A DNA stretch of 64,000 nt from contig NC_134515.1 in NCBI RefSeq assembly GCF_027942865.1, forward strand, positions 14,795,227 to 14,859,226, read 5' to 3'. The notes beneath the pieces were generated by a model, which searched no databases, was not told the origin of the DNA, and worked only from the letters and a program-made list of their open reading frames with translations. Shown here piece after piece: positions 19,861-62,994 of this stretch (positions are counted from its first letter, which is position 1; every line of letters starts with the position of its first letter). Origin of the DNA: Odontesthes bonariensis (taxonomy: Eukaryota > Chordata > Actinopteri > Atheriniformes > Atherinopsidae). The position numbers and the translations under genes were made by a program.

Positions 19861-20181
19861 TACAGTCTCCTTGACCAATCATTTTAGCACAAACTTCGCT
19901 CCAACAAAACTGACACTTGTCTTAGCCAATTGGAAGACGTCTTTGTCTTTGTTAGACGTTCCAACCAATTCGAAGGCGAGTTGGGCGGACCTTCCACCAG
20001 GAACATTCCCCGGCTGAGTAACTCATTCTGCCCAGTTCGATCGGCAACGGGAGCGGAAAGAAGAAAGCTGAGAGCCCGAAGGCAGTAGCCCCCACCACCG
20101 CCGGCCCAGGTTACCATCTAGCACCGGGAAAAATAGCAGAGAGCCGCCGCCGGCAGAAGCCATTACCAACCAGTAGTAACC
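19861..20181 (+). promoter_or_regulatory. ybx1 promoter and 5' UTR with three CCAAT boxes
   Basis: CCAAT occurs at 19875-19879, 19926-19930 (inside CCAATTGG) and 19965-19969, all on the plus strand, 210-310 bp before the ATG. The first, read on the other strand, is TGATTGGTCAA, close to the Y-box consensus CTGATTGGYYAA that Y-box proteins were named for. The region then turns GC-rich towards the start codon, with no TATA box. Confidence 0.6.
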
Positions 20182-23100
20182 ATGAGCAGCGAGGCCGAGA
20201 CACAACAACAACCGCCGCAGCCTGATGCCGATGCGGAAAGCCCATCCAGCCCGGCAGCCGCAGCTTCCGCGGGGGATAAGAAGGTCATCGGTAAGACTGT
20301 TGAAGCTAGTTAGGCTAACGTGGCTTGTGTTACAGTAGGGCGATGAGCTAAGTAGTGGTTCCCACCTATCCAATTCATGGCTAAATTAACCGTTGACTTG
20401 AACGTTACGATGACATGGCCGTTGAGTCGCTCAGTATAAGAACGTCTGAAACTGAATTAAATTTTTATTAGGCAACAATACTTATCAAATTTCTGTCAAT
20501 TATCGATAATTCTGTCTATTTTTTTTCTGTCGTGTTTGTACTGGATGGTTAATTCCAGATGAGAAGTTTTCTCTTAAGCTAAATCTAATTAATTTGCCGT
20601 TTTAAGGGCCAAACGTTTGTGCCGACGTTGATGCTAACTGGCGAAACTAAATTAAAATGTCAGTTGGCGGATGCGTGTCATAATTTTATCCTGTTTATTT
20701 CGTATTTATGCGGATGAACCTGTATTTTGAATTGACCACAAAAGAAAATGTGTGAATATTCTAATAATCCGTGGATTTCAGCCAGTTAATCGCATCAGTC
20801 CATCGGCCTCCGCACGTCAAATATCCACTAGTGAAACCAATGAATCCAACCGATCGTCCATGTGACGATCGCTTGGAGTAATTTCTTCAGCTATCAGAGC
20901 CAGTGAGTTTATATACCCGCGTTAAAGTCGTTAAAATTTAGCAGTTGACCCCCAACGGATTAGAACGTCAACGCCAACAGATAATCGCGCGGCAGTGTTC
21001 GACACTGTCATATTTCATTCCAAATACCCTCATCGGCTACAAGAATTAGCTGCCTACCATCCCTTTGTTCACACGGAAGAACCCGAGTCGATGTGGTGTT
21101 TTATCCAAAACTGTAGAAACGCCATCTTTTGTCCGGTTCATTTGTCCAAAATGTCATAGTAACAATCTATTCTCAATATTCCCAAATGCATCTACCAACG
21201 GATGTTTAGTTTTGGTCGAATTTCTGGGCTATCATTATGGCCTAGATACTGAGTGGTGGCTCCTCGATAGCTAACGAAGCTATTTTAGCCAAGCTAGCTA
21301 ACTGCAGCTATGTACATGGCCGAAAGGGCCACCCAAAATGTCCGCCTTGTGATTCCACTGATGTTTTTTGTGTGTATATATATATATCACACAAGTTATA
21401 TCTCAGTAAAAAAAAAAACAATACAACAATCAATGTTTTTGTTACACTCCTAAAACATTTGGTCACAATCAATGCTGTCGAGTGGCTTATGTTTGTTTCC
21501 GCCCGCTGGCTCTACTCCAACCACATGGTTCTAACCCTTTTAGCTCGATGGCTATTGCTAACAAGTCAGCTAAACTCGCTGCTTGCTAACGTATCCGGGT
21601 GCGACTCTACCACGTGTGGACGCTCACGCACTGAGTTGTGCGTCTGAAAATGGGGCAGTAGGTCTGTAACAGAACAGAATGGTTTATGACACCACAGCGC
21701 AATCCGTTATCATTTTTTTAAATCATCATTTATATGCTGTACTACAGCTCCATGAGACGGCCTGGAACAGTGATTTACAGGGAATAATACCACATCTTTA
21801 AATCCACATTAGTAATGAGTTGACACATTTTGGTTCATGCCTGACTCAAAGAGCAGCTGGCACCGTGCACTCCTATGCACCAGGATCTATAATAAGAGTG
21901 ACAGTTGGGAGTTAAATATACCTTTCTACATTATCTTCTGCCTTTGGCATTTTTACATCATCTGTTCTTATAAGATTCTATTAGTCATGATTGTCATGAT
22001 TAATTCGGTTTAAAAGCCTTACACTAATATCAGAGTGTTATCTCAACAGTGCTGCAAGGAAATATCTCAAGTGTAACCTCTTTAATGATTCAGTTCAATT
22101 GGTTCTCATTGCAGCAACAAAAGTCTTGGGTACAGTCAAATGGTTCAATGTCAGGAATGGATATGGTTTCATCAATAGGTAAGTGAACGCGCCGCATCTC
22201 TGCTTCAGAAAGACAATTGATGTAATTTGTATGTGTGTGAAAGACTATTCTCAATCCTATTACGGTTACGCTTTGCTTACCAGAGCAGATCAGATTATTT
22301 TTTCGGCTGGTCGCCTTACTGTTGTAATATTCAGCTCTTAATTAATCCATGTACTTGCTGACTTAGTTGCAATCTGTCTATAGAGACATCTTTGCATTGC
22401 TGTGCCTCAGGAGGATACTTTTAACTGAGAGGTTCTTTTTCTTTCTTTAGGAATGATACAAAAGAGGATGTTTTTGTACACCAGGTAAGTTTTATGTGAT
22501 AGTGTTAGTGTAATCTTATTATTTAATTAAAAAAAAGAGTCAGTAGGACTTAAAAAGTCTAACGGCTGAACTATTCGTGATTTCAGACAGCCATAAAAAA
22601 AAACAACCCGAGGAAATATCTTCGCAGTGTTGGAGATGGAGAAACTGTGGAGTTTGACGTAGTAGAAGGAGAGAAGGTAAGTGTTCCCTTTGGCTAGTAA
22701 TTTGGTTTCGCCTTGCAGACTTTTAAGGAAACATCCCATACATTTTTTTTTCTCCTGATTGTTTTTTAAGTAAATGAACTCCTTTGGTGCATAGGGAGCA
22801 GAGGCAGCAAATGTCACCGGGCCAGGAGGTGTTGCAGTCCAGGGCAGTAAGTACGCCGCTGACAGGAACCGCTACAGGCGCTACCCACGAAGGAGGGGTC
22901 CTCCCCGCGCAGGAGACTACCCAGATAACTACCAGAGCGATGGAGAGGGAGAGCCTGCCAGTGGAGGACGCGACAAAGGCAGCAGAGAGGGGGGAGACAG
23001 CGCCCCTGAAGGAGATTCGCAACCACAGCAGCGCAGACCCACTTACCCTGGCAGACGGCGTTATCCGCCATACTTTGTACGTAGACGCTACGGCCGCCGG

Positions 23101-24124
23101 CCCCCGTACACCAACGCACCACGCGGAGAGTTGACTGAGGTACGCCGTCCCAGGGCTACTATCCTGAAGCAGGCACCCAGTTCTTCTATGACTCAGGTCA
23201 CTCAATCATGCAATCATGATCAACTTATAGCTCTCTCCTCTCTAACGCTCACGTGGTTGTGATCATCAAATCTTGGTGTACCGGGGGTCTTGACAATATC
23301 ATTCAAATGAACTCAAATAGGCCCCTCAGCCGTGCATTTAAAAAAAAAACAACAAAAAAAAAAAACCAGTTTATTTACTGAACATTCCATCTACTTTCAT
23401 TACAACTTCAACTTGTATATCATCGAATATTCTGAAGTTGTGTCGTCTGTTGGCACTGGAGGAAAAAAAGTGGGGAAAAGACGCTACGTGTCATTGTTGT
23501 TTGATTTGTTTGCTTTCAGGGAGGTGAAGGTGACGAGAGCCAGGGAGGTCCAGATCAGGGCAACAAACCAGTGAGGCAGAACTACTACAGAGGCTTCCGA
23601 CCAAGGTTCAGACCCAGGTTTGCATGTTGGCTTCATTGACGAAGGGCAGCAATAAACGGGAGAGTGAAGTTTCTGCTCGTCTGGATCATATTCTGGAGTC
23701 CACTTGCAGAAATTTTAACGAACCTTTTTAAAAGACCATAAATGCCACACGTTTGGCCAGAGAAGCTCCCCTTTTATTGCAGCCCAACCTCAAAAATTCC
23801 AGCTGTGAATCCAAACAAAAAACACTTTTTTTTTTTTTAAGCACTATTTTGTGCCTGCGACTCACAGCCTCTTCCTTTCACTCCAGGGGCCCACCACGTC
23901 CCAGACCGGTGCGGGACGGCGAAGAGGACAAGGAGAACCAGGGAGGCGAAGGTGGTCAAAATCAACAGCCCCGCCAGCGGCGCTACCGTCGTAACTACAA
24001 CTACCGCCGCAGACGCCAACAGACTGGTGGCAAACCCGGCCCGGAAAACAAGGAGGCCAAGACAGGTGACCCATCTGCAGAGAAAACGTCCGCTCCCGAG
24101 GCCCAGCAGGGTGGGGCTGAGTAG
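20182..24124 (+). CDS. ybx1: YBX1, Y-box binding protein 1
   Basis: Cold-shock-domain protein that binds mRNA and single-stranded DNA, packages cytoplasmic mRNPs and regulates translation and transcription. Exons 20182-20290, 22115-22178, 22451-22484, 22587-22676, 22795-23139, 23520-23617 and 23887-24124 join in frame to 325 residues (human 324). The N-terminus is Ala/Pro/Gln-rich. The cold-shock domain spans about residues 35-110 with RNP1 (NGYGFINR) and RNP2 (DVFVHQ). The tail alternates basic patches ([33 protein letters not shown]) with acidic ones and ends in GGAE, as in mammals. The ATG at 20182 is preceded by GTAACC. Intron 1 is 1.8 kb, the others under 750 bp. ppih upstream gives the same neighbour as in human. 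Confidence 0.97.
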
Positions 24125-28500: not shown

Positions 28501-31500
28501 TTCTTGCACATTCCACAGCGTTGCAGCATTGGACAAACTTCAGTCATTAACTTCCTGTGCATGCATACTAGAACAAGGAATTTGGACCAGTTAAATGGCC
28601 AAGTTGAACTCTACCTTTCCACGGAAACGATCTGAAACCAAAACGCAAAAGTGGCGTTTCGTTTTCACTTTTAAATCTGCATTAGACGAGCGTTTTAGGG
28701 TGAAAATCTGCGTGAATACGGAAACGCAAAAGTGTGTGACGTTTCATATTTATCGATGCAGTAAACACGCCAGATGGCTAGGTGGCAACACTACCAAGAC
28801 CAAGGTCGCCTGCTCTCTCTATGAACTTCAAGAATATCGAGAACGTAGTTCATATTTTTGGTTTGTTCTTTACTACTCTCGCTCATCATTGCTGTTATCT
28901 GATGAAATGACTCTTGAACGTCAAGGCGAGTTGAAAGTCCGCAGGGACGGACATGTTGATAGCCTACTGATGTGTTTCTGGCGCTTTATTATGCTTGTCA
29001 CGTCATTTCTATGTGACGAGAAACGCAGTTTTGCGTTTTTCATCCTTTACACGGTGGCGCGACAGTGGAGCGTTTTCAAGAATTCCACTCTGGAGGGCGG
29101 TTTCACTTTTTTGCGTTTTCATGCCCCCAAAACGCCGTTACCATCTAAACGATATAGTGCATCCGCAAAAAGGTTTTGCGTTTTTAACCCGTTTTCGTTT
29201 CCGTGTAAAGTGCCCCTAACTAGACTCAACTGTGCACGAAAAAACAAGAATGGGTTCAACAACAGGACAAAGATCCTAAATATTACTAAAAAATCCAAAG
29301 GGGGGCCTCCTCAGGAGGTCTAAGCTGAAGGCTTTATCGAGGCCCTCAGAGAGCCGGTCATGCCAGGCAACTTAAAAAATCTTAGAGATCTGAATGAAAA
29401 GATGAAAATTCCTCAGCCTTTACATGCTGTGATACTTACCAAAGGGAGTATTACTAAATACTTTTGCTTTGTGACATTTTCCTTTTCTGTTATTTTGAAA
29501 AAGTAAAACAATGGAAATAAAAATTTTGCTTCAATTATAATATATATATTGCGTAAGGTTTTGAGAGCTGTTCAAATATGAGAGAAAAGATGAAACTGAC
29601 ATCAAGCAGCAGCGGTAGTCTGGTTACTCGCTGCATGGGCAGGATGAGGAAGGACAGCATGGGCAGGCCTCCACAATCACTGCTCCCCTCGATTTTCTTC
29701 AAAGTCTCTTTGAAAGCAGAGTTATTGTTCCTGGGAGACACGAACAGAAAAAAGTTCAGCTCATCGTGCCGTGTCACGGTAGACACTCCGCGGCTTGTTT
29801 TAGTTTGTTCTGGCACTCACAGCAGCGTCTGCAGTGTCCTCTGTTGGAAGGTCTCGTTGGAGCAGTAGACGATGTAGGGCTCGAAGTGGCGGGCAGCGTG
29901 GTTCTGAACAATGTCGCTGATGTCCCAGATCACCGGGTTTACATTGTGACGTTGTTCCAGATCCTCAAAAAAACTGAAAATTGAGCAGGAGGGAAAGGCA
30001 GCTGATGAATGTGTTTTTCCTCACCACAGCAGTATACACACAGCTTGGAAGATGAAGTGTGTCCGGGCTGAAGTGATTTATAACTTTCACTGTATTATTG
30101 TGTCACAAGAACAATGAATGTAGGATGTTTTCACCTTGTAATTTGGACCCAGAGAGAGGTACAGCAATTCCATTTTTTACAATACAATTTTCACCTTTAT
30201 AATAAAATAAATAAATGCAGAAATGATGTTAAAAGCTCTCTTTACTGTAAGATCCACATGATCTCTTCTGCCAAACCTTTGTAAAAGCCTTTTCCATTTT
30301 TAGCACCATCAACAATATGAATGAGTCTCAGCTTGTCCCTTTCTAACAAAAGAAAAAGAGTAAAATGACACCTAAAACACAGCCCCACCTCGGAACAAAC
30401 TACACGACACACATTCACATGTAACATGTATCACACAGAAGCTTCCTGACACACTGTCCTTTCGTTTCACTGATCCTGTTCTACTCTATCACAATCAAAA
30501 ACAAGTGTCTTCCTTTGCAGGTAAAACTTGATCTACTCTAATTCAAAATGTAAAAAAAAGTCAAAGTAAAAAAACAACACAGGGAGGCCGTCCTCAAAAA
30601 CATTATCACCTTGAGGACCGGGAATACCACTCACAGCGGCTTCAGTGAAGGCAGCAGAACCAGTTTGGCCTGCAAGACTAAACATGTTAATAGAGCCTAC
30701 AGGGGACTAAAGAAATGCTAAAGAAAACTACTCTCCCTGAAACTTCAAATCAGCCTATATCCCACCTGAAACCACATCCCAGTGGGAACTAAAATTACAG
30801 CACAACATGAAAACACACAAATCCATTCATAGTGAATGGATAGTCTATTGCCTTGCCTCACTCTCTCTGATAGTATCACTGGGTCTCTTTAAGGAGGTGG
30901 TAAAAATACCAAACCAACTGGTATCTCATGTGCTTTCGACACACATGTGCACACATGCACGTAGGAATTTTACCAGAAAAAAAGATTATACATGGATGTG
31001 AAAAAAAAGGGGGGGGGAAATGTCATTCATACCCTCATTTTAAGAATTAGGATTTCAATAATCATATTTATCAAAACAAATGCATTGCAATTTATCTCAA
31101 AAGTGTATCAAAAGAAAAAGCCAACAAAAGGCTGTTGTGCTGACCGTTGGCTGACTTTGTGGATGACGGAGATGTTGGAGAAGAGGTGGTGGTGCTCTGT
31201 GGCTGTCATTGTTTTCCTCAGCGCCTCGCTGTCCTTGAAGTGACGTACCAGGATGCCCAGGCTGTGCAGGTACGAATGCTCTGAGGTGATGATCTCAAAA
31301 ATGGCCTGTCAAATAATCACCACAGTCAAATGAGTGCGACGCCGCAACTCTCATGTGAAACGTGCTAAAAACACACAGTATGATTCTGTTAAGTAAATAA
31401 AACCCTAAAAACTTCAGGCATCTTCTTTGGGATTAGGCTTAAAACTATCCTTTGATACCCTAAATAATTCCTTTAGTTAGGCTGCCGTAGGCCGAGGCTA

Positions 31501-40187: not shown

Positions 40188-43100
40188 TCACTTTTTGGCT
40201 ACATCACCTTTCTTCAGAATTATCTGCCGCTGCCAGGGGGCCAGTTTGGTCTCATCGTAGCCCAGGGTCCGTAGTCTCTCCTGCTCCGTCTTTTCCTCCA
40301 TCTCCTTCGCCTGTTTGGCCTGCTGTTCTGCTTTTCTGTATCCATCCACGAAGAAAGGTTAAAGACAAAACAGTAATTAGCATTATACAGCGATCCTACA
40401 CAAAGTTTCAGCATGCAGGTTAGTTTTCTTATCCGATTCCCCAGAGCTTCACTTTCTTCCATAATAACACCTCATTGTGAAAAATGTGTGGAAATCAGCA
40501 TCTCTGGTTTTAGACAAAAAAAAATGCACTGATTTCCTCCCATTCAGGTCCATATTATCCCAAATATGTTTTGGTGGGACTGAGTGCAGAGCCCAGCCCA
40601 GTCATGTTCCTTGCAACTAAAATAGCCATTTCTTTATGGATTTGTGGTGAGAATATTGCCATGTTATAAAAGGAAGGTCCCTTTTGCCTCATAGCTGAGA
40701 CTCAAGAAAAAAAAACACATTTTGTGTACTCTTAGTCGGGGAAATAAGATATCTGCACACACGTTTGGACAATACAGTGAGTTTCTGTATTAATCTTCCT
40801 TGGTGACCTTTTTAATGCAAGAAACTGTCACTTGTCATAGCAGGTAAAGCGCAGGTGGAACCAAGATAACTATGGCCAAGTTCCAACAAATATCACACCC
40901 TCTTGGGTGAAGGTCCAATGCTACCTTGAGGTTACACTTGATGAGTAGCATTATTTAGCTACTTACGTTAAGTTCAAGTATGTAGTAACAGTTGTTGTAT
41001 GAAAAGAAAAACATACCCAGACAATGTCTTGCTCTTGTAATGTCAGTCAATCAAGTCTTGTTGTGCTAGTTCAAGATAGGAATCTGATAGAAGTGTCAAC
41101 CGTGGTGCATTTGCAGTCATTCTACTAACAATTTGTTGACATATCTGAGGTTTTCTCAGCAAACTGTGAAAAACAAATCTGAAATTTATTTAGGCAGATT
41201 TGATATTCAAAACCCTTTAATGTAAATATTTTCTAAATCATCAAAGCTTGATTGTACAGTCATTGCCACCAGTCACATAAAAAAAATTTGTAAGGACTTG
41301 ATTTGGTCTCTTTCTTTAGTCATTTATCCGGCATGTTATAAACATTACTGTGTGGAATAAGTCAAATATCTTACCTTTTTTGTTCCCTGTCACATCAGGA
41401 GATCGAAGGCACAAGAAGAAAAGGTGTAAATATCTGGTACAGCAACAGCAGTTATTCCACAATTTAGAGCATTTATGGCATAATTCTTGCGACTACATTT
41501 AAATATACATATACTGAACAATAAGTAGGGATAGTTTAACAACACAAAACCACAAAGATAGATAAAGACTTTTGCTTGAAATTGTAACTGTCCTGTGTTC
41601 CTTCAGATAATTATTAAAGTTTGACACCCACAACATTTTATCCGTTGGGAAAATGTGCATTTCATAAACCAGTTTTTACTTGGAGACAAGTTGAAGCCAG
41701 TTTCCTTCATTAGCTGAATGAACAGCTTCTGTTTTGAGGGAGTCCAAAGTTTACAATCTCAGCAAGTCTGTGGCTACATTAAAAAGAGTAAACCATGCAG
41801 AGTTAGCTTGAATTACATTACAGTGTAGTATTCTTGAGGCAGATATTGTGAGTCTTTGAAAACACCATGAACACTGGTAGGGCTGTGCTACGTCAAGGAT
41901 CAGAAATCTTATTCTGTGTCGAGCAGTGAATCCGTTTAACAAAGCAGGTATTTTCTGTCATTGATAAAAGATGTTATCAGAGCTGCACTGATTATCAGTA
42001 CAAGAAAAACATTTAGTTTTATTACATAAAAGTTATAAGAATCACGAAAGCTGTGCAGGAAAGCATCATGTTACGTTAAAACTGATGTTTTGTCACAGAC
42101 AAATCTAAAACATGATGTCCAGTTGAGAAGCCCCCAATCCAAAATAGCTGTTGTTTTGTTTCTATGGATCCAAGCTACATGAAATACTGTAAATGGGACT
42201 TTTTGGTAGTGTAATGGTGCTGGCAGAGTTTTATTATATTGTATTTCTTCAGTGACACTGTGTATCCGTGCTGCAAGGAAGCACCAGTTAATCAAAAGGA
42301 GCAGAAAAATGTTTGCTTCCATCGCGATTCTGTATGTTTCTTTAGATTTGTACAGAGATACGAGGCATACTTCCACATTATATACAGCCTCCAGCATTTA
42401 AGATTTAGGGGAAGCAGAATTTGATCTTCAATGCTGTTGCATAAAAAGACACATTCAAGTGCACATGAGAGAGAATCCTCACAAATAAACCGACCCAGAG
42501 ATCAAGTGTAGCAAACTGCAAAAACTTATATGAACACCTGCAATCACAAGCAATAACGTAGCAGAGTTTCAACCCACGCGCTCAGGAATAAAAGAAATGT
42601 GGTTCAAGGGAGGAGCAGACCTACACTGCATCGTTACTCACCTCTCCTCGTCCATTTTCTTCTTCATCATGTCTCTTCTCCAGGCTGGCATTGACGCCAG
42701 GCGAGATTTCTCCTCGTCAGCCTGTAGGGAGACAAAGGGGCCCAAGGAAAGACAAGAGATGGGGACCCACACCAGTCAGTAAAGATTTTTACTGGGATTA
42801 AAGCCCTCATTTCATCATTGGCTCTTCTTGATTCATTGGTCACAATAACTACGCTAAATACTGGAGAAGCATCATTTTAAAATGCATCTAAGGCCCTATG
42901 CCCACATATTTCACCTGCAGCACAACATCATGAACAGACTGTTTAGCTAGATGATCAACATCAATGGGGCCATTCGTCATCAATCCTGTCAGTCTTGTAA
43001 GAGCCACAGCTACACTGAGCATTGCATGATTACATTAAATAAGCTGTAATATGAAACGGGTCTTTAAGCACAGATTGAATATTAAAAATAAATCAGTCAT

Positions 43101-46100: not shown

Positions 46101-49100
46101 CTTAAATGTGTCACAACCACTCAAACTTTTATTTCGCTTGGTTCATGTCTAGTTGGTAGGTTAAAACTGAAACTGAAGTTTTACTGTTAACTGATAATCA
46201 CTGGAGATGGTGGGTTAATCACTGACACTATCGTAACATGAAATGTAGCCTGAAATATCCACTACTATATACCAATAATATTCACAAAGTCACATTACTT
46301 TTTATGGCAAATCTTGTCCTTTAAAAACTTATTTCCCCAAAAGCAAAGTATCATGGCATCAAACAAACGTCACCCAAAAAGCTCTTGGTTAAAAACAATT
46401 CAAATTTAAAACTAAAAGTAATGTTCTTTTCTTTTTCTCTTTTTTTTTTTTTACATAAAACAATTTCTCTCCATCCATTAAAGCATATGGAAATAAAAAA
46501 AGTTAGTACAGCTAAAAAGAAGCTCTGTGCTGCTTTCAAGTCCTTCAGGTGACACCAGATTGGCTTCCTCGTCCAGTATGTTCCACTGTGCAAGTTAGCC
46601 TACCATACCCTGCCCCTAATCCATTTATTTTGGTTGTGGGTTTAGTTCACTGTTAATTCACATTGCTGTTAGATATCAAAAAGCTCTGCTTCTTTTTCTT
46701 TCCAAAAAGCAAAGCTTCGATCAATGTATCGGATGATCTCCTCATTGCTGAACTCTTTTAACTCATAGATCACTTTAATTGAGTCCTCAGTGGGCTCATC
46801 TCTGGGTGGAGGTTTATCAACATTAGGTTCCTCTATGATTTGAACACCAACAGGTGGAACATCTTTCTTTGGACCTGATCCTGAGCTTTCTGTTGTGTCC
46901 TGTAGTGCCTGAGCCTGTTGTCCACTTTCAGCTGTCAAGGTCTGTAAGTGGGTCTTCTCTGACATTGTCCCATCAGGAACCACAGATGCAGTTGATGGGA
47001 TCTGTTCATTTAATTCCACATTCTTCTGAGTACCACCCTCCAATGACTCCTTCGAGGTTCTCAGTTCCACACAATGGTCATCGTCAGACACACCATGCTG
47101 GGGAGCAGCAGGTGATGGAGAAACATCTAACTGGGAATCTTGTGAGGAAGGCTGCAGTTCTGGTGCAGGTGGAGTAGACTGTTCCTTTGGAGGTGGGGGT
47201 GCAGGATGAGTAGGGGGCGGCGGAGGAGGATGAGAAGGTGGGGGAGGGAGTGATTCCTGCATTGGCATAATGGGTATGTCAGGAGACATGGAGCGGAGAG
47301 AAGCTGTCATCATACCTCCTGCATTATCAGAGTCTCCAAAATACTTGAGTTTTATGTCCTCAAAGCCATCCGCCCAATCTCGTTTCCCTCTCTCAATTTC
47401 CTCCATGACCTCCTTGTGAAATTGTCTTATGACTTCCCATTTATGGCTGCCAAGACGATCAAACATCTCATAGCACAAGAGGTGGCGGAATTTCCGCTCG
47501 CTGCGAGACATGTTCATTTCCAATAACTGGAAGTATCCAAGCATGAAGAGGTCAAGAGTTAGGCTTTCATAGCTCACAGGTGACCCATTGATGTGTGGCA
47601 AGAAGTGCTCTGGCCAATAGATCATCTGAGCGCGGCTCAGCCTCCGGATCTGCCGTGTGGGCACTTGGCTCATGATTGTCCTCCAGTGGCCAATCAGATT
47701 CCCTACTACCTGCTTTGACTTCATGAACAGGAGGAGCTTTTCATCTTCACTTTGCATCTCCCCACTAACTTGAGCATTAAATTGGTTATACTCCCTGTAA
47801 TCCACATCTAAGTGATTCCGTCTCCTGCCTGTATATTTAGTTCGATAACATTCGGAGATGGTATACTTCCGCCAGTGTTCAAGGAACAGAAAAACTATTC
47901 TTTCTTTCCTCATTTCAATGTATTCCTGGACATAGCTTAGATCTGTCTGCACCTCCAAGGTTCGTGTTAGTTGGTCGTTATTTAAAATGGGGTCTGAAGA
48001 AAGAACCTGGTTGAATTGTTCAATGTTTGTTGGAGCCATTGCCTCAGAGGACACATACATCTGAGGAGCATGAGATGCGATGATAATTGGTTCTTCAACA
48101 AGTGGTACAACGGATTCCTCTGTTGAAGGTAAATGTCCGTTGGTATTAAAGTCAGGGACTTTAGCAGAGGAGCAGGTAGCATCATCCTCACAAGCTGTGT
48201 CTGGACAATAATTAGACTCACTTACCACAGGGAGTGATCTTTTGCGTTTGTAAACCCTGTTAGCTTGGTTATCTGCAAATTGAGACTGATTCTGTATTTC
48301 ATAATTGGCCTTAAGGTTTTTGACCGAAACTCCACACTGCTTTATTTCGTTCTCCACGTCCTCTCTTGTCGAGAAGGACTGAGAGCGTCCAATAAATGCA
48401 GTACCAACTGTTGCTGCAGGTTGAGAGTCGCCTGTGCTCATATTCCTTGCCTCTTCTTGAGAAAATCCAGGAAATATAAGATCCAAGATGTCTATCTCTT
48501 TGCCTCCCAGGGTGGCTAGAAGAATTGCCATACTCCTGAGCAGGGTCGAGATCTTGCTGCACCAGGCTGGGAGATCCTCAGCTTGGCCATGTACCTGCTT
48601 TGGATTGACTGAGAAGTGTCCTTGACTGAGAGCAGCAGAAACTGGCAAGAGCTGGTGAAGCTCCCGCTCCAGTTTTTCCAGTTCCTTCTCAATTTCTGAC
48701 ACCTTATGCATGACCTGCAGGTTCTCAATTTGCTTCTCAATTCGGTTCAGGTCAGCCTCGGTCATCAGCTCCCCAAACGGGCCCAATATGGCATTATGGA
48801 TGTGAGAATAGTGCCATTCCTGAGGCTGGTAGTGTCCACTTGACGCAAACTAAATCAGAGGTCAAAGGAGACCAACAGGACAAGAAAAAGGGAGGGAGGG
48901 AGGGATTCCTTCAGCACGAAGTTCCTGGTATGAACACACGCTTGAGTGCAAATCCATCCTAACACACAGGATTTACATGGATTTAGTGGTGCAATGGCAC
49001 AGCCTCATTACAGGCACTAAACTCTCTACTGTAATTTAAAATCACAGAGAACAGAGAATGCTTTGTCCTTTTTGAATTCACTGTCAAATTCTATTCTGAC

Positions 49101-52100
49101 TAGATTATTATTGGTAAAAATATAATATTGTTTCAAATGTTGCAACAGGCCTGTATTTGATTTAGGCACTTGATCATTTCAGACCTTTTACGCCTACGTT
49201 TACTCAGAACGCCAAATTCTCTGTCTACTTTTTTATGCGTCAGTGTTTCTTTTTCAGTTTACAGTTACACTACACAAACACTGAAAAATCTAATTAAGTG
49301 TCCATCTATTAATGTTTTTCCCCATCTTGCTGCATGCTCTGTGACCCAACTATGATGTAACACTACAATATAGTTTAACAGTATTAAATCAGCTTTGGGT
49401 CTTGGCACCAGTGCAACAGAGACACTTCAGTCCTCATCCAACAATGGGGAAAAACCAATTTGGAAGTGCTGGAGAGTTAAAAAGGCCAATATTGTCATTG
49501 TTTTTTTTCTGATAAAAGGGATTTGGTGAGAGATTATGATCTGCTTGCAAACCGCCCTCTTTGGAAAGACATGAACAAAAAACAGCAATTTGACGACATA
49601 AGGTTCTTTGATTCTTAAATTACACAGCACTCACGTTTTATTTGTAGTACTATGGAGCTGTTAAAGTGCTATTTAAATGTTGTTGTTTTTTAAATTATTG
49701 TGCCTTTTTTTAAAACGTGTCTTTATTATCTACACTGTACTGTAGTGTGAATGGGCCCAGCATCACACCACTGAATCTGCATGTAAGAACTTGGAGGCAC
49801 AAAACACCATCATCAAACACCAGCCAACACTATGAATTGTTTAGTCAAGTGTGTTAATGCTGTGATGGACGTCGTAGCCAAGTCTTCAACTCAATGCACT
49901 CCAAAAGGCTGCTTAACAAAGTCTATGAATATGAAGATAGAAGCATGCACAGAAATACCAACAAAAGCCAAGAAATACTTTCATAAATATTGAGCACATG
50001 AATGAGGAATGTTTGAGGAAGTTAGTTCAAAACTTTTAGGCTTTTTAACTGTAAGGGGTTTTAATGCTGCCACTACACACCAAACGATTAAACACCAAAT
50101 GTCAGCATCACTAGAGGAGACCCATTGGATCTTTTAAAAGGATAAGATTTCAATCTTTGGAAGAAATAAATTAATAATTAGTCAGATTTAATTAATCATA
50201 TCACTAGAGTCCTTCTATTGCAATGCTAACAAGTGCTCAGATTACTCCAGTATTAATTACTAATCAGTACCTTGTCTAAATATCTTATATAAACACACAT
50301 CCGGGGAAACTGAGAGGTATGTGTCTTGAATTCTAAAGTCATTAAATCTAATTAAATTTTTTTTAATCTTTTTTGCAAACACAGACTAAAACTCTTGTGT
50401 ATAACTTGGACAATATAATTCATTCTGAAGATGTATGTTGCTAAAGTTCTCAGAGAAGCTGCATAAACTTAGGAATTTGACGTCTCTGAATATGCCACCA
50501 TAAAGCAAAATCTGCCATGCACAGCTACACTTGCAAAGAAAATGCTTTAACACAACCTCACAAACCAAAAATCACAAAAAATCCACACCCACAAACACTA
50601 GCTATCCCCTTTGTGTTGTTAATTTTTTCAAAAATGAAGCTACATTTATCCGGTTTTCAAATGGGAGCACAACAGGGATAGCCAAAACAACAGCACTTAA
50701 TGACTTTCTCTGCAACGTCACGCCTACCTTGCGTCTGTGCTCCTCCTCCTCTTGCATCTTCACCTGAAGCTTTCGCACCATCACCTGCCTCTTCCATTCA
50801 GGGATGGCTTTTCCTTGCTCGTCATGCGTGGGCACTAGAGCCTCAACATCCGCGAGGCTCGTCTTCCTCTCCGACTCTGCTTTTGCTGTGCCTCCCCCAA
50901 TGTTCCCATTGATCGCCGAGTTGGAGGACAGTTGCTCGTAGCTCGCAGAGGTTGACATTGTCCTGGAAGATCCTGAGCCCGTCGGACTGGGGCTGGGGCT
51001 CGGAGTGGTGGGTGGGGAGGTGACAGGTGTACTGGATTGTGGAGGGGATGACGGTTTGGCTGGTGGGGAAGCTGAACGGGTCTCTGGAGATGTGGTGGTT
51101 CCCTTGAGGAAAATAAAGAACGAGATGGACCAGAAACAAAAAGAGTCACACATCTTTTACCTGGTGCATTTTTTAACAAGTAACAACATTCTTTATGGAT
51201 ACATGTCGAAGGCAACATCAGCCATTCTTGAAGAGATTTGAACTTAGCAGTAAGTAAAATCCTAAAATCATGAGTGAATTGTGTGCAACAAGTTAAGTCC
51301 TAGTTTAAATTATGCTTTACTGAGGAGTTGAGTAGCCAAACACTAATATCGTTAGATATTCAGTAGCTCCTTTGGTGATTTAAAGTAAAATTGAGCTTTT
51401 TCTAAGCTAAGGCATTTGCGTTTATTAGTCCTTGATTTAAACATGACAAAGTGGAACCATATTCACAGTTAAAGGCAAAAGCTGGGGTTGAACTGACCAT
51501 ATCTGTGTTTCTGTGTTTCTATTAACCACTGCCTGTCACATAAATTAGTCATGGAGGAAGGCTGTGGACCTACATTGTTGCCGGTGGGTCCGCTGTTAGA
51601 AAACACAGTGGTGTAGCCTTTACTGTGCGGTGTGGGCTTAAGGCTCTTTCCTGCTTTGATCTCTGCCAGCAGCTCTGAGTTGTCACCAGTGGGGGACATC
51701 ATGTTGAAAGATTTTGTGCCTGCAGACAAAAGAAGAGGACAAACAAGTGAAACCAGGTAGGAAGATAGTAGACAGCGAAACAGAAAACAGAGAGAGTGAG
51801 ATACACTGAAGAGGAGAAGAGGGGTTGGGTGGCAGTGTTGAATATTTCATCCAATCAGCCGGGTAACAATGCTGACCTGCAGCATGTTGTACAATGATAG
51901 GAAGTCTTTATGGTTTGGTGAGCCTCTGTTTCTCATGCAAGGGATATGGATATGCTTTTTTTTTTTCTTTACATTTCCTCTTTTAGTCGTGCCACTGTTG
52001 CACTAGAAATATCTGGATAAGAAGGTGACTATAATACACACAGCTAAGCTATAATTGAACTTCCTGATTTTTTTAAAGGAAGAAAGTACACCCAAAGGAA

Positions 52101-55100: not shown

Positions 55101-58100
55101 AATAAAGCACCAAATGAACAAAACTACTGAATGTACTACTTATTATTTTTTGTTTCAGTAAAGTAGATCACATTTTTCCTAATGAAAAAGTGAACCTAAA
55201 ACTGTTTTATAATTTGATAACGAAACACACTTACTGAATCCGTCTCAAATAAATCAGCAATAAATGATGGAAAATAGCTGCATAAAAGGCTCTTAAAGGT
55301 GGTTTTAAAATTTAAATGCCTACTATGTGAGCCTTAGACGTATCTAACAAAGCTAACTTATGGAGGTGAAAGGCTAGTTCTCAGTCTGTACTTACTCTTC
55401 ATCTGTTTAAGAGGCCCTGCCTCTGGCTGAGGGACAGCGAGATCCCCGGCTTGACAGAGAAGCAGGAAAAAAAAGCAAAACAAACAAAACAGAGAGAAGC
55501 AGGTGAAGAGGAAGCAGGTGAAAAGAGAAATATGTAAACAGGAGTGTAACAAAGGATTAATGGAGAGGAAGATTATTGAACAAAAACAGCAGAAGAACAG
55601 TGTTAGCTGGACAAAGACCGAATTGAGCTAAAACTGCATTTAAATGAATAAATTACACAATAAAAATGCTTCATCTCTGTACTCTTCATGCTATTGATCA
55701 TTTATAGATAAGCACTTTTGGCATTCCCAGCTCCATTTGACCTCCTGACTTTCATCCAGTATTATTTTGGTTCAAAAGTCAACAGTGCTCAAAAGACAGA
55801 GATGATTAAGTGGATTTGTCAGTTATTTTTTCACATGATCATCCTTGGATGTGAGCATGATATTTTTTTTTTGTAAAGGCCATCAAGCGTGTCCATGAGA
55901 AACGGTGAATGTCAATAAAAATAAATTTACAAATATTTAAGATCAAATTACGATGATCACTTTTCTGTAATTATAGACGTATTGTTGGCCTCAATATGAA
56001 CACTAAAAAACTTTGATTTATTTTCAAGGATCATAGGAACCTTGTAAAGTTAATTCTAACCATTTGATAATTTGTCTCCAGCCTGAGCAACACATATGCT
56101 CTGATCATGAGGGCAGAGGGGCACTTAAGGAAATGGTTGAACACTAAACCAGATCTCAGGGTAATGGTAACCCTGCATCATTAATTTATAATCTGTTATT
56201 TAGAATGCTACGGTTAGACGCAACTCATCTTTACCCAGGGCGATTGCGTTGTACTCTCTAGTACCACAGTTTCTGCTTTCTAGGAATAATTATATAACAA
56301 TATGTGCAAGCAAAAATTAATTTGACATAATTTTCTACAGATGGTCAGTAACACACATTAAGCTGGAAAGAGTTAAGCTGAGGGACACTCACTGCCTGAT
56401 GAGGAAGATGGACGTCGCTGATGAGTGGAGGTGCTGCTGGCATTATTCTGGGTGGTCCCCGGGGGTAGTGGAGGAGGTGGGGGGGGTGTTGGCATTGGAT
56501 TGCTTGGAGGAAGAGGTGGCGGTGGAGGTGGGGGTGGGGGTGGGGGCGGTACAGATTCGTCTGTGGCACCATTTTCAGAGCTATGGGTGGGGCTGTTAGT
56601 AGGCTCCTCCAATAACATGGAACCCTAATAGAAAACCAAGGAGGAATAAGGCAGACTTCATCAATCAAGTGATACCTCTTAACTTGGTATAGTCCAACAA
56701 CTACACTGTTGTTACTCTGTTAGCCAATATTTTGTCACTTAAAGCAGGGATGGGATGGGTAGCCCAGTGTTCCCATAACTTAAAACAACTCTTGAGCTAT
56801 GTCAGAATCTAAAAGCTGGCTCTTTTTTTTTTTTTTTGTCTTTAGTTTTAAAAAGCAATTGGAATGCCATATTATAATAATTATTGAACAAATTAAACGA
56901 GTTAAAAATAAAGAATTAAACAAATTTAAAATAAAAAACAACCATGTTAGTAAACATTATATTATATTGTGAATTTCTACAGCTTTCTTGCATAAGCTTT
57001 AAACGGGTACGCTGAAGCTCCTGCTGGGCATTAAATTCCTGTACAGAGGCAGCTGACAGAGACAGATGTATGCATCCCTTCTAGATATGTCCACCCTCAG
57101 ACACAATACCCTCTGACTAATAGGAGTTAGTTAATATGACCTAATCCCAAGGGGGAATCTCTGAGGGTAAAACGGTAGGAATAAACCATCTGTCACTGCA
57201 AGTGATATTCTTGCACGCGTCTGACACACTCCCAAGGCGTGCCCTAAACTCCGCTGGGGGCAAGTTAATGGGCCGTGACATTTAACTCGATCCCACCCCT
57301 CCTTTGCTCTTCAGACGCGTGCTCATCATTGTTGCCCCTTTCATTTTCAAACCCCCAAGAGAGTCGGGCGGGGGGACCGTGTCCAGATGGGCCGTGGTAG
57401 CACGTGCCGATTCCGCTGATTAGCCAGTCCATCTGCTAGGGTCCTCGGAGAGAAGGAGGGGCCCCACTGAGGCCTTAATTGGCTCAAAGCGGATTATGCC
57501 CCGTGTCAACCCAAACACCCCCTGTTCTGATACTCAGGAGATTTTAAGAACACCTCTCCAGGGACACAGATTAGAGTGTAATAGACTCATTCAATCATTC
57601 TTTTCTGCTTGTGAAGTTATGTGGCAGCAAATTAAACCAGTAACCAGATGCTGCCATCAATAGAAACTTTCGTGTTTAACTTGAATGGAAGAATATTTAA
57701 ATGTTTACTGATGTATACTTTTTTCAGCTAAAAAAACCTTTTGAACCTTTTTACTGTCAAATTTGAATGAAAGGAAAAATTACAGGTTAATACATTGTTC
57801 GTTTTTTTACCCTATTTTTTTTTCATTCAAATAAGAAATTCAGCTTTACTCTCCCTTTTTTGTTTGTTCATTGGTAACTTCCTGGTGAGCCCTCTTTCGT
57901 CCATGACTATCCTGAGTTTGTTCCATTGCAGCTGCGTGGACAATTTACACGGAGGGGAGGAGACACAAGCGGCAATGGAAATGAGGGGGCATTCGGCAAG
58001 CTTATGTAACATGCTGATTGGTAATGCTAAGGCAAATAGTGCTGTCAGTGTTGTAACCTAATGCCAACATGCAATCACCCCGCTAAACCTCACCCAAAAA

Positions 58101-59299
58101 CTGCACCTTATACCAAGCTGGGATGACCACACAACTTTGGACAGTGTGTCCAGGTCACTGTATCATCAACCCATTACCACATACCATGTGTTGTAGCCTG
58201 TACACTGGTTTGGGATCTTAATGTTTAAATCTTTGAAAAAAAATAATAACTTTTACAATATTTAACCTCGTTTGAAATCACCTGGTGTGGAAAGGCATTA
58301 AAATTAATTAGATGGATTTTTTTTTTCTTGCTTTCCATTACACTGGAATAAATTTCTGTCTGTGGAGAACAAGTCAGTCAAGTTATTCAACGTATATATT
58401 GACCTGGAGTCCCTGGAAGAAGAGATTGTACATCTCAAAGGGACCTTCCCGACTAAATAAAGGAAATAAAACAAACTGCATATAACATTATGAATAACAT
58501 CAACCATTTTTAAAAAATTGTGTTTTAGGTATGTCACAACATTTGAACCATATGGACAGAATTCATGACCAGCAAAGGTTTTACTTGCCTCCTCGTTAGG
58601 CGCCATGTTTTTGATTCCAAAGGGCTCCGCCGTGTCGCTGCCCAGAGTTTTGTAGTAGTCCCCAGTGCTGGGCTGCTTGCTAAAGCTCCTCGACTTCCTG
58701 TTTGAATCCACACGCCGCAGTTTATCGTGGCTTTCTCCAGGCGTCAGCTGCTTCACAGAATTAAAAAGAAATGAGAGCAAGAAACGTAAGCTTCAAATTT
58801 ATTTGGTGAAATTTACTCACAATCCACCATATAAAAGGAGTCACATAAATCTGAAACAAAAAATATTCTTTCAAACAATAGTTGCACAAAAATAGGTATT
58901 CAATTGACAAAATAGCAAAAAGTAGAAGGCAGAAAATCGTTTAAAAATGGCTAAACAACAATACACTTTGTACAACATATTTACTCTACTTTATTGCCAG
59001 ATTAGCAGCCTCGTGTGACCAAAGCAGCTTTATTTGGATAATAGAACCAGGCTTTAATTTAGTTAATGTAAAACCCTGGCCGAGACGTTTCATCAAAAGT
59101 TGCAAAAAGAAACCCTTCTGTCAGAGTGGAGTGGTCACCAACTCAGACCATTTCACTTTCTGCTCTGACACCAATCAGGCAACGGAGGTCAAAAAAGCAT
59201 GATATCGTAGGGCCGCTCCATCAGTTTTCAGAGTTTTCACTAAATGCAAATGTAAAATATACTGGATAGATTTGACATATGCACAGCAAAAAAAAAAAG

Positions 59300-59331
<32 letters not shown>

Positions 59332-62300
59332 TCTACATTACAACTCTTACGAAACCGTTTCCATATAGTATATCACAAAAGAGTTGCATAAAGGAAGAAA
59401 AGGCTCATTTTACAACCTATTCTCAGAAATAAACCTTGAAAGCTGTGACATAAAAAGATGTCATCAAAGCAAGATGTTGCTTTGCCTTTCAAATCCAGGA
59501 CTAAGCATCAAATTTGTATTTATTTACATCTCGATGCTTTCACACAAAAGGACTTTGCCACAACATATAGGCCAGTACCTCAGAGATTCAGATGTCTGAG
59601 GTTAACGAAAGCGGAAATAATTGACAGCTCACCCCTGACCTCTCCTCCATAGTGGTGTCATGTTATCAGTTCCTTATAAGCCCCTTTAATTGTGTTGACT
59701 CATGTCTGCTATCGAAGAGATGGTCCCTGAGCTCTCATCATGTGGAAGGGTAATGCGAGCAGGGACTGCTGTTGATGGTTTGTCATCCTCCAGAGAGGTG
59801 GGCCAACAATAGCAATTGTATAAATCATTTTGGCTCATCTCCCTCACGTGCATAAACAGACACCCTCTTCTCCTGTTATATGACAGCATAAAGTCTTTTT
59901 TTTTTTACGTGTGTGTGCAGAAACAACTGTTTTTACATTAAAATGTTACGTGTGACACAATCAAAGGTTGTTCAGCTTGTTTGTTGTTTGAAATAGCTCA
60001 ACACATGTAGCATGTAGCATAATTCTACTGCTAAAACCTTTCAAAGCAGAAAGGCAAGGCAAATGAAACATATTTATACATGTGAATATATTCATCAGAT
60101 TCATTGTCCAAATGCCCCAACAGCTCCAAAACCTTTAGATCAGCTGAAGTTTTCCAAAGCAAAAATGTGATGTCATTAGCAAGCCTCTACTGACATCATC
60201 TTTGCCACATGTGTGCCTTACCTTAGAGTTAGGAATCCCTTCTCTGGTCTGGACAGAGCCACATCCACAAAATCCAATGGAGCACAGAAAATAGCTGTCA
60301 CCAGATCCAGAGCTTCACCTTTTCTCTGCTCAGTGCTACACCTGTCACACAACCTGCCCTCTCACTTTACCCACAGGCCTCATCAATAACCTATTGGGCC
60401 AGCACTGCAGTTGCACTGATGTCACCACCTACCCACAGATCAACCACTCCCCAACCTTGTCCAGTTCCTCTTATGCAAAACACAAATGCCCATGTGTTGC
60501 TCTAAACCACAGAAGGCCACATGCAAATCCTCAAAGCTTTAGGATTATTAGAATATTCTAGCCTTTTGTGTCCCGAATTAGCAGCAAAACTTGTCAGGAG
60601 TTATACTGATTACAAGAGAAATATCAAAGTCCAAATTGTTTGAAGGGACAACAGTCCAAAGAATAAGAATCTGAGAGGCAAAGTGGTCATTGTTTGAATG
60701 TTTGTCATTAAACCTTTGATTTAAGCCAAAGCAAATGCAGACAAATGAGCTGAGCGAAGCAGCATCAGCAAAAGCCTCGACAGTCTCGAACAGACCTGGA
60801 ACAGATTCACTGGATGATTTTCAACGAGACTTTAGATATGTTTTCTGCAAACTAAACACTAATACGAGATCATGGGACTGGCCCTGCAGCTAAGGCACTT
60901 TAGGTAGTTTTTTTTTTTTTTTTTTTGCAATCTAGGGCACACAGTAATCTTAATTGCGTGTGTTTTTGTGCACGCAGGTGTGCGTGTGCTCCAAACGGTG
61001 GCTTCTATTCAATTATTAATGAGGGTCCGCCCTCAGCTGGTCACAAGGGCATAGAAGGGAGCGGGGCAGCACTAATTAACCCCACCCACCAACACACACA
61101 GACGCAGCTCACCATGGAGACGGATGATGAAAACTCACAAACGCTAGCTGTGGACTTTAGAAGTGCACTATCAAAGGACGTTACATGCATAGTAAAACTT
61201 AAAAAATATACAGCTCTTTTGTTGTGTATTGTTAAAGCTAAACAAACAAAACAGGGACGGTTGTGTTGCTATAATCACACTGTAACAATCAGAAAATGAA
61301 TCTTTCATGAGGTGAGAGCGCTCCTTCAGATTAGTTTTATTTGATGTAATTCCAGTGTTTTTAGATAAAGTCATTTATATTTAAATTAGAATTACAAGTT
61401 CAACATCAGTTTTTATGCTTCACAGCATAAAAACCACTAGATGCAGCTCTGACACTTATGTTAATGGCAGTCTTAATTGCTGCTCCTTCTCAGCTCCTGA
61501 AACACTGTTGAGTGATCTGTTGCCAGTTTAATTACTGGAATCAAGATCAAACCCATCACAGCAACCATTGTATGTGTCAACCCAGAGGCTTGCCACACTA
61601 ATGAGCATCTTCTGTGGCCTCGTTAGCCATGCTAACACAATAACATCATTGTGGGCTCCCTGACAAGGCACACAGTTACAGAAGAACTATAGCCGAACTG
61701 ATTAGACACACAGGGGGAAAGTAACAGCTAATTGCCAGTTTATCCATAACATTTTGTTTTTACTGCTTCTATAGTATTGGCCTATATAATTCATAAAGCT
61801 TCTTGAAGACATTCTAGTTTAACCAAAAAGAGGCATGCTCGACCTACAGTTAGCTAAATGTTGGTATTTATTATGCTTCTGTGTTCTGTGCATCATGTCT
61901 TGTGATTATCTTGTGCTTTAAGTGAGCCAGAGAGTTAAACCCAACTTCCTGTTTCTGTTGGAAGTTGGATTGGCACAAAAGAATGAACCAAACAAAAATT
62001 GTAACTCCTGGAAAAACTGTACATTTCTAACTGCCCTCTTGCTTTTTTGACAAGTTGCTTTTATTCTTTCAGCTTAAGCAGGAGCGTACCACCACTATCC
62101 GTACCTCTTTTTTGCTGGCAGCTCTCTCCACATGCCGCAAGTTGCTTTTCACTTTAAGGAACTCAGCTGACGAAGGCTCCTGAGGGGGCTGTGGTGCTGT
62201 GTAGTTCGGAGGGGGAGGAGGAGGAGGGGGAGACTGTGGAGGAGGCGGGGGTGGATAGGTTGGAGGAGGAGGAGGGGGCTTGGAGGCAGCTTCAACAGGT

Positions 62301-62994
62301 GCCTCATTCTTCTTGGGCACACCTGTGCCAATGTCAGGGTTCAACATGTCCATGTATGCTTGCATGTCTGAAATGGCGGACTCTGGTGCACCTGTGACAC
62401 AAACACAATCCAAAACATGCTATGCTGTTAAAAAGCTCTTCCTTTCCATTTTCTAATGCACAGTTTAAATACAAATGAGAAACATGGCTGTGCCGCTCCA
62501 TGTAAAACGAACTGTCTGCACGCTGACCACTAGGGTGCAGCACCAGTATAGAAAGCACCTGTCACAGAACCAAAAAAACTGTTGCATGGTGTTAGCTCCA
62601 CTTCAGTAAACAAATAGGTGTTTGACTAATGCTGACATGTTATATTGGGAAGGTAAAGGTCGAAGATTCGTGGCTAAAATAAGACAAAAGTTTTATTTGA
62701 TAAATATTTTTGATATTGATTTATAAATAGGTGCAGACCTTGATGTGCAACTGCATTCAGCGGAGCTGGCGTGCCTCGTGACGTTGTTAAGCTGCTCCTC
62801 TTTTCCCCAGTGCTGGACTGACTGGAGTTGGCCGAGTCGTAGTTGGACAGGGAGCTGGATGGTGAACCGATGTCAAAGTGTGCCGCCTGGTTGGCAGGAG
62901 GCATGGTGGTGTTAGGGGACGAGAGGCCAGAGTCTGGCTGCTTGTACTCAAGATCCATCGAGGGGTCTCGAGACAAAACACGGTGCTCCACACT
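40188..62994 (-). CDS. espn: ESPN (espin), actin-bundling form, 5' half outside window
   Basis: Espin bundles parallel actin filaments in hair-cell stereocilia and brush-border microvilli. Exons here: 62994-62739, 62391-62105, 58747-58589, 56624-56393, 55449-55396 (cassette), 51719-51574, 51102-50728, 42721-42642, 41386-41375 and 40335-40188; all join in frame to 582 residues. The N-terminal ankyrin repeats lie beyond position 64000. In order the sequence shows [12 protein letters not shown], two proline-rich runs (exons 62391 and 56624) that in espins bind profilin and SH3 domains, [32 protein letters not shown] (the WH2-type actin-monomer site), and [14 protein letters not shown] followed by [14 protein letters not shown]. 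The C-terminal bundling module has [11 protein letters not shown] and [20 protein letters not shown] and ends KKGDVAKK. Human espin ends in nearly the same way. Exon 62994 begins in phase 0. Confidence 0.95.
41375..41386 (-). CDS. espn: espn 12-nt microexon
   Basis: Twelve bases (GGAACAAAAAAG on the minus strand) between a CAG acceptor and a GTAAGA donor. They bridge phase 2 to phase 2 and turn the joined protein into DEEREQKRKAEQ, matching EEEREQKRKEEE in human espin. Without it four residues would be lost but the frame kept. Confidence 0.85.
42722..46623. other. espn intron between the two alternative 3' ends
   Basis: About 3.9 kb of AT-rich sequence with A-rich low-complexity at 43705-43750. 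No other exon was supported. Part of 46130-46623 may be the extended 3' UTR of the long form. Confidence 0.5.
46669..48849 (-). CDS. espn: espn alternative terminal exon, 726-residue tail
   Basis: A single open exon of 2181 nt. It starts after a TTTAG acceptor at 48850, in phase 0, the same phase as the donor at 50728 that also feeds the bundling module. The tail begins [20 protein letters not shown], then [20 protein letters not shown] and a coiled coil (about tail residues 30-65). A region near residues 310-500 follows, rich in aromatic and basic residues ([43 protein letters not shown]), that I cannot assign. Next come a proline-rich run near residue 525 and a closing segment [19 protein letters not shown] follows 40 nt after the stop (46629-46624). 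It lacks the bundling module. It resembles my memory of ESPNL tails, unverified. A separate gene is unlikely because no start codon or promoter fits. Confidence 0.8.
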   Translation of the reverse strand, partial: FASSGHYQPQEWHYSHIHNAILGPFGELMTEADLNRIEKQIENLQVMHKVSEIEKELEKLERELHQLLPVSAALSQGHFSVNPKQVHGQAEDLPAWCSKISTLLRSMAILLATLGGKEIDILDLIFPGFSQEEARNMSTGDSQPAATVGTAFIGRSQSFSTREDVENEIKQCGVSVKNLKANYEIQNQSQFADNQANRVYKRKRSLPVVSESNYCPDTACEDDATCSSAKVPDFNTNGHLPSTEESVVPLVEEPIIIASHAPQMYVSSEAMAPTNIEQFNQVLSSDPILNNDQLTRTLEVQTDLSYVQEYIEMRKERIVFLFLEHWRKYTISECYRTKYTGRRRNHLDVDYREYNQFNAQVSGEMQSEDEKLLLFMKSKQVVGNLIGHWRTIMSQVPTRQIRRLSRAQMIYWPEHFLPHINGSPVSYESLTLDLFMLGYFQLLEMNMSRSERKFRHLLCYEMFDRLGSHKWEVIRQFHKEVMEEIERGKRDWADGFEDIKLKYFGDSDNAGGMMTASLRSMSPDIPIMPMQESLPPPPSHPPPPPPTHPAPPPPKEQSTPPAPELQPSSQDSQLDVSPSPAAPQHGVSDDDHCVELRTSKESLEGGTQKNVELNEQIPSTASVVPDGTMSEKTHLQTLTAESGQQAQALQDTTESSGSGPKKDVPPVGVQIIEEPNVDKPPPRDEPTEDSIKVIYELKEFSNEEIIRYIDRSFAFWKEKEAELFDI
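48850..50727. other. espn intron before the alternative terminal exon
   Basis: No gene or repeat recognised in 1.9 kb. Confidence 0.5.
51720..55395. other. espn intron between cassette exon and WH2 exon
   Basis: Contains a G15 run at 52217-52231 and a pair of diverged direct repeats at 54202-54312 and 54488-54600. Otherwise nothing recognisable. Confidence 0.5.
54202..54600. repeat. Pair of diverged direct repeats, about 110 bp each
   Basis: 54202-54312 and 54488-54600 share GCCACCTG, CGTTG, GTTGC, ATCTGAGCTGTAA, TTCA and TTTTAA..TTATG in the same order and spacing, with many differences between. The offset is about 290 bp. Confidence 0.6.
55396..55449 (-). CDS. espn: espn 54-nt cassette exon
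   Basis: Acceptor with a long pyrimidine run ending CTGTCAAG, donor GTAAGT. The exon fits phase 1 on both sides, so it can be in or out without changing frame, and adds about 18 residues ([17 protein letters not shown]). I do not recall a matching exon in human espin. Confidence 0.7.
56625..58588. other. espn GC-AG intron with a GC-rich block at 57000-57560
   Basis: The block stands out from AT-rich surroundings and carries GGGGCCCC, a CACGTG E-box at 57401-57406 and several GC-rich motifs. It may be regulatory. The rest is featureless. Confidence 0.4.
58748..62104. other. espn intron
   Basis: Holds an A-run of about 40 at 59288-59327 and a T-run at 60908-60926. No exon was supported. Less AT-rich patches near 60230-60500 and 61570-61690 could be regulatory. 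Confidence 0.45.

Follow-up and report, generated by a model that had tools for sequence, protein, structure and literature searches.

Organization of the espn locus

The window is a stretch of 64,000 nucleotides of the Odontesthes bonariensis genome (contig NC_134515.1, here C15), and contains on its minus strand a gene of the espn type; espin is an actin-bundling protein of hair cells. As read from its sequence, the window holds the 3' part of a fish espn with two alternative last exons, and both endings are encoded. Seven shared exons (A-G) were modelled within the window, whose coordinates are used throughout. The first 22 codons of exon A (62739..62994) agree at 18 positions with the C-terminal 22 residues of 5ET1, a mouse espin ankyrin construct. 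Exon B (62105..62391) contains the first proline-rich stretch and an xAB-like segment, exon C (58589..58747) an ARB-like 20-mer, exon D (56393..56624) the second proline-rich stretch and exon F (51574..51719) a WH2 motif that scores under the Pfam cut-off; exon E (55396..55449) is between D and F. The donor of exon C is apparently GC (GAG|GCAAGT, at 58588-58589). Exon G (50728..51102) ends with the first 37 of the 116 residues of the bundling module, and its donor at 50728 (CGCAAG|GTAGGC) is in phase 0. When exons A-G are joined, one frame is free of stops over 503 codons, and the two others contain 10 and 23.

The shared frame runs open into both arms, with 503+726 or 503+79 residues. The acceptor of exon T at 48849 (CTGATTTAG|TTTGCG) gives a phase-0 join from 50728, and so does the acceptor of exon H1 at 42721 (CCCTACAG|GCTGAC). 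Exon T (46669..48849) has 2181 nt and 726 open codons with the sole stop at its end, and encodes the tail, a predicted 726-residue ESPNL-type C-terminal domain. An AATAAA (46624..46629) starts 40 nt past this stop, and additional AATAAA signals are found 536, 1025 and 1417 nt past it. The two alternative joins of the exon ending at 50728, and the 2181-nt open exon with its own stop and an AATAAA 40 nt later, had been claimed in an earlier analysis of this DNA (the sequence-only reading), and are borne out by the donor and acceptor sequences and by translation.

The bundling arm is located 4-6.5 kb downstream of exon T and is intact. It is formed by H1 (42642..42721, 80 nt), a probable microexon of 12 nt, H2 (41375..41386), with or without which the arm is in frame, and the last exon H3 (40188..40335), which contains the stop. 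The espin actin-bundling module has about 116 residues, and in the form that uses 42721-40188 there are 116 residues from LVPTHDEQ to the stop, 37 in exon G and 79 in the arm. The earlier claim that the module needs the part encoded at 42721-40188 is amended in that 37 of its residues are in a shared exon. Published papers give the C-terminal module as about 14 kDa. A PDB search with the shortened protein containing the shared part and the module yielded nothing useful.

Exon T as coding sequence

The stop frequency of the introns predicts 42.8 stops in 726 codons, and the probability of finding none is about 7e-20. Exon T is the longest open frame of the window (726 codons vs 376 for the next). 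With codon scores trained on the espn exons other than T, the tail frame shows -0.03 per codon, the five other frames of the same DNA range from -0.27 to -0.55, and 180 overlapping readings of introns give -0.68 +/- 0.09, with a highest value of -0.49. A chance open reading frame was rejected on these stop statistics, length and codon score.

Similarity of the tail to mouse ESPNL

The accessible text of the mouse ESPNL paper prints six peptides: four numbered antibody peptides from the C-terminal half and two mass-spectrometry peptides (PMC4773517). These were compared with the six-frame translation of the window, after removal of the cysteines added at peptide starts, and 500 shuffled peptides were used as control. 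Four of the six find their best match in exon T: MAHVPARQLRRLSRR (10 of 15 residues, a score reached by 0 of 500 shuffles), FEVFEHLGAHGWEAVRAFHK (11 of 20, 0 of 500), DLPAEERKMRHLL (7 of 13, 2 of 500) and EIQECGVSVR (7 of 10, 0 of 500). One more is placed by position, HWKKSAYTPALRTAACRT, with 5 of 18 residues at the expected place (tail residues 325-342), and one, CQEYESELGR, fails. In the four numbered peptides the mouse start number minus the tail position is 423, 421, 422 and 422, with the mouse numbers taken as printed; the first numbered peptide is 18 letters long although its printed range spans 16. Seven control peptides from MYO3A, MYO3B and actin (of the eight printed) gave no significant match in the window and none had its best match in the exons, and three ESPN-1 ankyrin peptides had no significant match in the window either.

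On this sequence evidence, the tail is homologous to the C-terminal domain of mouse ESPNL. The sequence-only reading had proposed a search of the tail against ESPNL and had pointed to a conserved-looking domain at residues 310-500 that it could not name; it is here identified as the ESPNL C-terminal domain, since three mouse peptides match tail residues 393-479 and a fourth fits residues 325-342 by position. With the tail as query, sequence searches of Pfam and PDB yielded nothing above chance level, and no relatives of the tail were confirmed among 16 and 53 pattern matches in collections of viral contigs and genome contigs. The structure prediction also proposed earlier was run by AlphaFold on tail residues 300-510 with no alignment, and gave helices only, with a mean pLDDT of 42.7 and no usable fold.

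The other arm shows the peptides of mouse ESPN. The bundling peptide LASLPAWR is found in H1 with 7 of 8 residues (0 of 500 shuffles), and LAPWQR is found exactly, 6 of 6, in H3 (1 of 500). Because mouse peptides of each protein match separate arms, the ESPNL-specific and the ESPN-specific endings are both at one locus. This agrees with the earlier proposal that one gene encodes an espin and an espin-like ending, both arms being in frame. Since the bundling arm is intact, the gene was not classed as ESPNL.

Two further espnl-type loci in the genome

In a search of the whole genome (945 Mb), where the window corresponds to C15:14795227-14859226, the tail query found loci at C15, C19 and C20 (8 matches, E<=0.001). 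A 124-residue module query gave 11 matches in all: only C15 matched its second half, all three loci matched its first half, and five matches with E above 2 were taken as chance. A weak match of this query, to the middle of the module, is at C23:17984381-17984527 (E 6e-4, 39%); it is part of a 1314-residue frame and is perhaps charged low-complexity sequence. The common exon (LVPTHDE...) at C19 and C20 is identical to that of espn in 27/37 and 25/37 residues, respectively. In the three loci it ends in phase 0 and the tail opens at the corresponding place. The hexapeptide QDERGR, at Q433 and read from a guide RNA for mouse Espnl exon 8, resembles this exon (THDEQGK in espn, THDERGR in C20).

The C19 tail was read as one exon of 530 residues and the C20 tail as two exons with 496 residues. 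The latter is seemingly split by an intron that the tails of espn and C19 do not have, and long open frames, labelled by eye as retrotransposon-like, are found in the 8-kb intron that precedes the C20 tail. The conserved core of the espn tail (residues 306-529, 47263..47934) is matched in both loci, and its last residues are among its best conserved stretches against both: the C-terminal motif (residues 700-726, 46672..46752) is 81% identical to C19 over 27 aligned residues, and residues 696-724 are 76% identical to C20 over 29. This C-terminus might conceivably bind a PDZ domain. Against C19 and C20, the mouse peptide CQEYESELGR matches 7/10 and 6/10 residues. Ankyrin-repeat open reading frames near C20 are about 61-63% identical to two of espn, and no match with E<0.01 to exons C (ARB) and F (WH2) was found in the DNA surrounding C19 (43 kb) or C20 (43.5 kb). 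Since two espnl-type loci are present, the long form of espn would add to ESPNL and not replace it.

Assignment of the gene to espn

The available text of PMC3953818 maps xAB to a 13-mer ending in LRHV, and an ankyrin-binding 20-mer, from R to G and with consecutive tyrosines, to 24 residues downstream. The gene in the window shows LRHV, then exactly 24 residues, and then an R..G 20-mer containing YY; in its xAB-like 13-mer K and LRHV are kept, N and I are changed and Y is replaced by F. The WH2 motif of exon F gives a Pfam E of 3.5e-4 with 20.6 bits. A leiomodin-2 match to exons A-C (E 3.6e-4) was rejected, being largely a match of proline-rich sequence. Ankyrin-repeat open reading frames, one of them with a Pfam E of 1.4e-12, are located upstream of the window on the same contig and strand as espn.

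Downstream, ybx1 is indicated by a match of 22795-23196 (+) to the zebrafish YB-1 chain 6a6j (E 7e-7 over 24 residues). Coding-like open reading frames of ybx1 are found at 20000-24121 (+), and around 22795-23196 two plus-strand frames are open and coding-like. A RhoGEF fragment at 31195-31296 (-, E 0.0013) is probably arhgef16, judging by this match. According to the legend of a synteny figure, espn, arhgef16 and ybx1 are in succession in zebrafish, medaka and fugu (PMC7014666). From these neighbours, ybx1 and probably arhgef16, together with the espin-type segments, we conclude that the predicted gene of the window is fish espn.

Age of the tail and origin of the dual gene

The tails of C19 and C20 are identical at 248/466 residues, vs 194/481 between espn and C19 and 195/474 between espn and C20. 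Mouse ESPNL residues are known at 86 positions, and the 84 that are ungapped in all four tails were used. At these, mouse matches C20 at 53, C19 at 48 and espn at 42, while espn matches C20 at 43 and C19 at 31, and C19 and C20 match at 50; C19 diverged in one stretch, which lowers its match counts. Sites at which a single tail deviates number 13 for espn, 8 for C19 and 2 for mouse. In a bootstrap over sites, mouse was closer than espn to C20 in 0.976 of replicates and to C19 in 1.000. The unrooted quartet has five informative sites split 2:2:1, so the age argument rests on distances. Compared with the other two fish tails and mouse ESPNL, the espn tail is the outlier; it therefore looks ancient and, if rates were roughly equal, would have left before fish and mammal ESPNL parted. 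Such an early departure is as expected if exon T predates the separation of ESPN and ESPNL.

These data argue strongly for a fish espn with mutually exclusive last exons, in which the choice between them is probably older than the ESPN/ESPNL split and is now divided between two mammalian genes. The last-exon choice would have been present before ESPN and ESPNL separated; ESPNL would then have lost the bundling arm and mammalian ESPN the tail exon, while fish espn would have kept both. An exon T copied into fish espn from a fish espnl after the separation of fish and mammals, by exon duplication or gene conversion, would instead make the dual gene a derived fish novelty. The coexistence of espn and both espnl-type loci in the genome and the barely resolved quartet (2, 2 and 1 informative sites) would allow it, but mouse ESPNL is nearer to the two espnl-type tails than the espn tail is, the private differences of espn exceed those of mouse, and the two espnl-type tails are closer to each other than either is to espn. 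A recent copy was therefore rejected on the identities, site counts and bootstrap, under a rough clock, and we hold this origin to be improbable.

Slightly less probable still is that exon T is a relic, intact but unspliced in O. bonariensis, so that espn makes the bundling form only, as in mammals. Both junctions are predicted from DNA, and the espin isoforms described in PMC10046292 and PMC3953818 have a common bundling C-terminus; however, a relic fits poorly with 726 stop-free codons where about 43 stops are expected, with coding-like codon use, with the conservation of the core and of the C-terminal motif and with intact splice and poly(A) signals. There is very little to be said for the tail being an independent gene whose promoter lies between 50728 and 48849. 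The 1.9-kb intron has room for an unseen first exon and the tail has its first Met at residue 29, but C19 and C20 also have this tail behind the common exon, joined at an identical phase-0 splice position, and in mouse the C-terminal domain and a 27-residue piece of the module are parts of a single ESPNL protein. An unrelated gene was rejected because the exon pair is present in three loci.

Several observations weigh against an ancient dual-ending espn, whose two junctions are predicted from DNA; the absence of the tail exon from mammalian ESPN is presumed. Among the mouse peptides, HWKKSAYTPALRTAACRT is not significant by itself (12/1000 shuffles within the tail) and scores as high elsewhere in the window (466/500 shuffles); CQEYESELGR does not find the espn tail, its best window match being equalled by 371/500 shuffles, with 4/10 residues at the aligned place, and QDERGR is too short for placement in the window (284/500 shuffles). 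According to a cloning primer, with the frame taken from its linker, mouse ESPNL ends in PPATPQS, and so without the fish C-terminal motif there. The 43 kb around C19, which reach about 19 kb upstream of its common exon, yielded no ankyrin exon, for which reason the C19 locus may be truncated or may have distant 5' exons. As to the identity of the gene, the search of exon A against 5ET1 gives E 0.16, not significant alone, so that this match is support and not proof. The WH2 score of 20.6 bits is under the curated cut-off of 23.1, and the xAB-like segment is identical to rat xAB in 5/13 residues, with two of the eight required residues changed non-conservatively and one conservatively. The name arhgef16 relies on a single short RhoGEF match under the cut-off.

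Proposed function of the long form

Splicing from 50728 to 42721 would give an espin with the full actin-bundling module, and splicing from 50728 to 48849, with polyadenylation there, would replace its last 79 residues by the 726-residue ESPNL-type domain. According to PMC4773517, mouse ESPNL binds actin without cross-linking it and is a myosin III cargo, and a 27-residue stretch of it is 74% identical to the first portion of the bundling module. The ankyrin repeats of the long form would let myosin III carry it to protrusion tips, where it would bind actin with the initial portion of the module, and possibly also with the xAB-like segment, and would cross-link weakly or not at all, the C-terminal domain supplying an ESPNL-type role. 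From a single gene, bundler vs weak bundler or non-bundler would then be set by the proportion of the two splice forms.

The sequence-only reading had stated that the long form keeps the ankyrin, proline-rich and WH2 regions and cannot bundle in the usual way. For the regions kept, this stands for the proline-rich stretches of exons B and D; the motif of exon F is WH2-like, under the cut-off, and the ankyrin exons are upstream of the window, in the same contig. For bundling, the second part of the module is lost as claimed, but the first third, a partly conserved xAB and the WH2-like motif stay. By this comparison the long form may lose part of its actin binding, and weak cross-linking is possible, since nuclear actin bundles are also formed by jerker espin 2B despite replacement of the second half of its module; these bundles depend on xAB and are read in PMC3953818 as residual cross-linking.

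Like the long form of espn, mammalian ESPNL contains ankyrin repeats, the initial part of the module and the C-terminal domain, and the second half of the module is absent. Unlike it, the locus in the window is espn by its neighbours and also encodes a complete bundling arm, and its long form adds the xAB-like segment, the ARB and the WH2-like motif. Mouse ESPNL also has 104 residues after the FHK match, vs 247 in the fish tail, and does not show the fish end motif at its C-terminus. With mammalian ESPN (espin 1-4) the gene shares ankyrin repeats, two proline-rich stretches, the xAB/ARB layout, a WH2-like motif and the 116-residue module, but the isoforms in the available literature vary mainly N-terminally, by transcription start, and have one C-terminus, whereas fish espn has an alternative one. 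The fungal SKI7/HBS1 case, as far as described in the consulted part of PMC3597508, is alike in that one alternatively spliced ancestor is kept in some species while its products are separate genes elsewhere. It differs in that the single-output genes would here be mammalian ESPN and ESPNL, and that in the fish the dual gene is accompanied by two ESPNL-type loci.

A wider proposal, which could equally well prove right or wrong, is that ESPN and ESPNL represent the two splice products of a single ancestral vertebrate gene, split by duplication and reciprocal exon loss, and that the undivided fish espn makes a myosin-III-borne bundler and a hybrid weak bundler or non-bundler by last-exon choice, as a splice switch for protrusion length in hair cells. 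In the available text of PMC4773517, ESPN-1 and ESPNL are products of two genes, both bind myosin III, and they differ in their influence on the motor when the steps of stereocilia are set. If true, a gene with two endings would explain the origin of ESPNL and last-exon choice would be a possible control of protrusion length in fish. The hybrid, with its xAB-like segment, WH2, first third of the module and ESPNL tail, would be unlike any published mammalian espin, and the long form would be a natural hybrid for asking the role of the ESPNL C-terminal domain, to which the consulted literature gives no separate function. No espin with an ESPNL tail was reported among the open-access literature matches listed, and an annotated but unpublished fish isoform may exist. 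Both protein types are already known; their joint encoding in one gene did not appear among the literature matches listed.

Other features of the window

An open frame of 242 codons at 28595-29323 (+), not on the strand of the probable arhgef16 but on the other one, has no Pfam match at E<=0.01. The region 9126-11071 (-) contains long open frames of 376 and 206 codons, which have no Pfam match at E<=0.01 and by eye are partly similar to a LINE reverse transcriptase.

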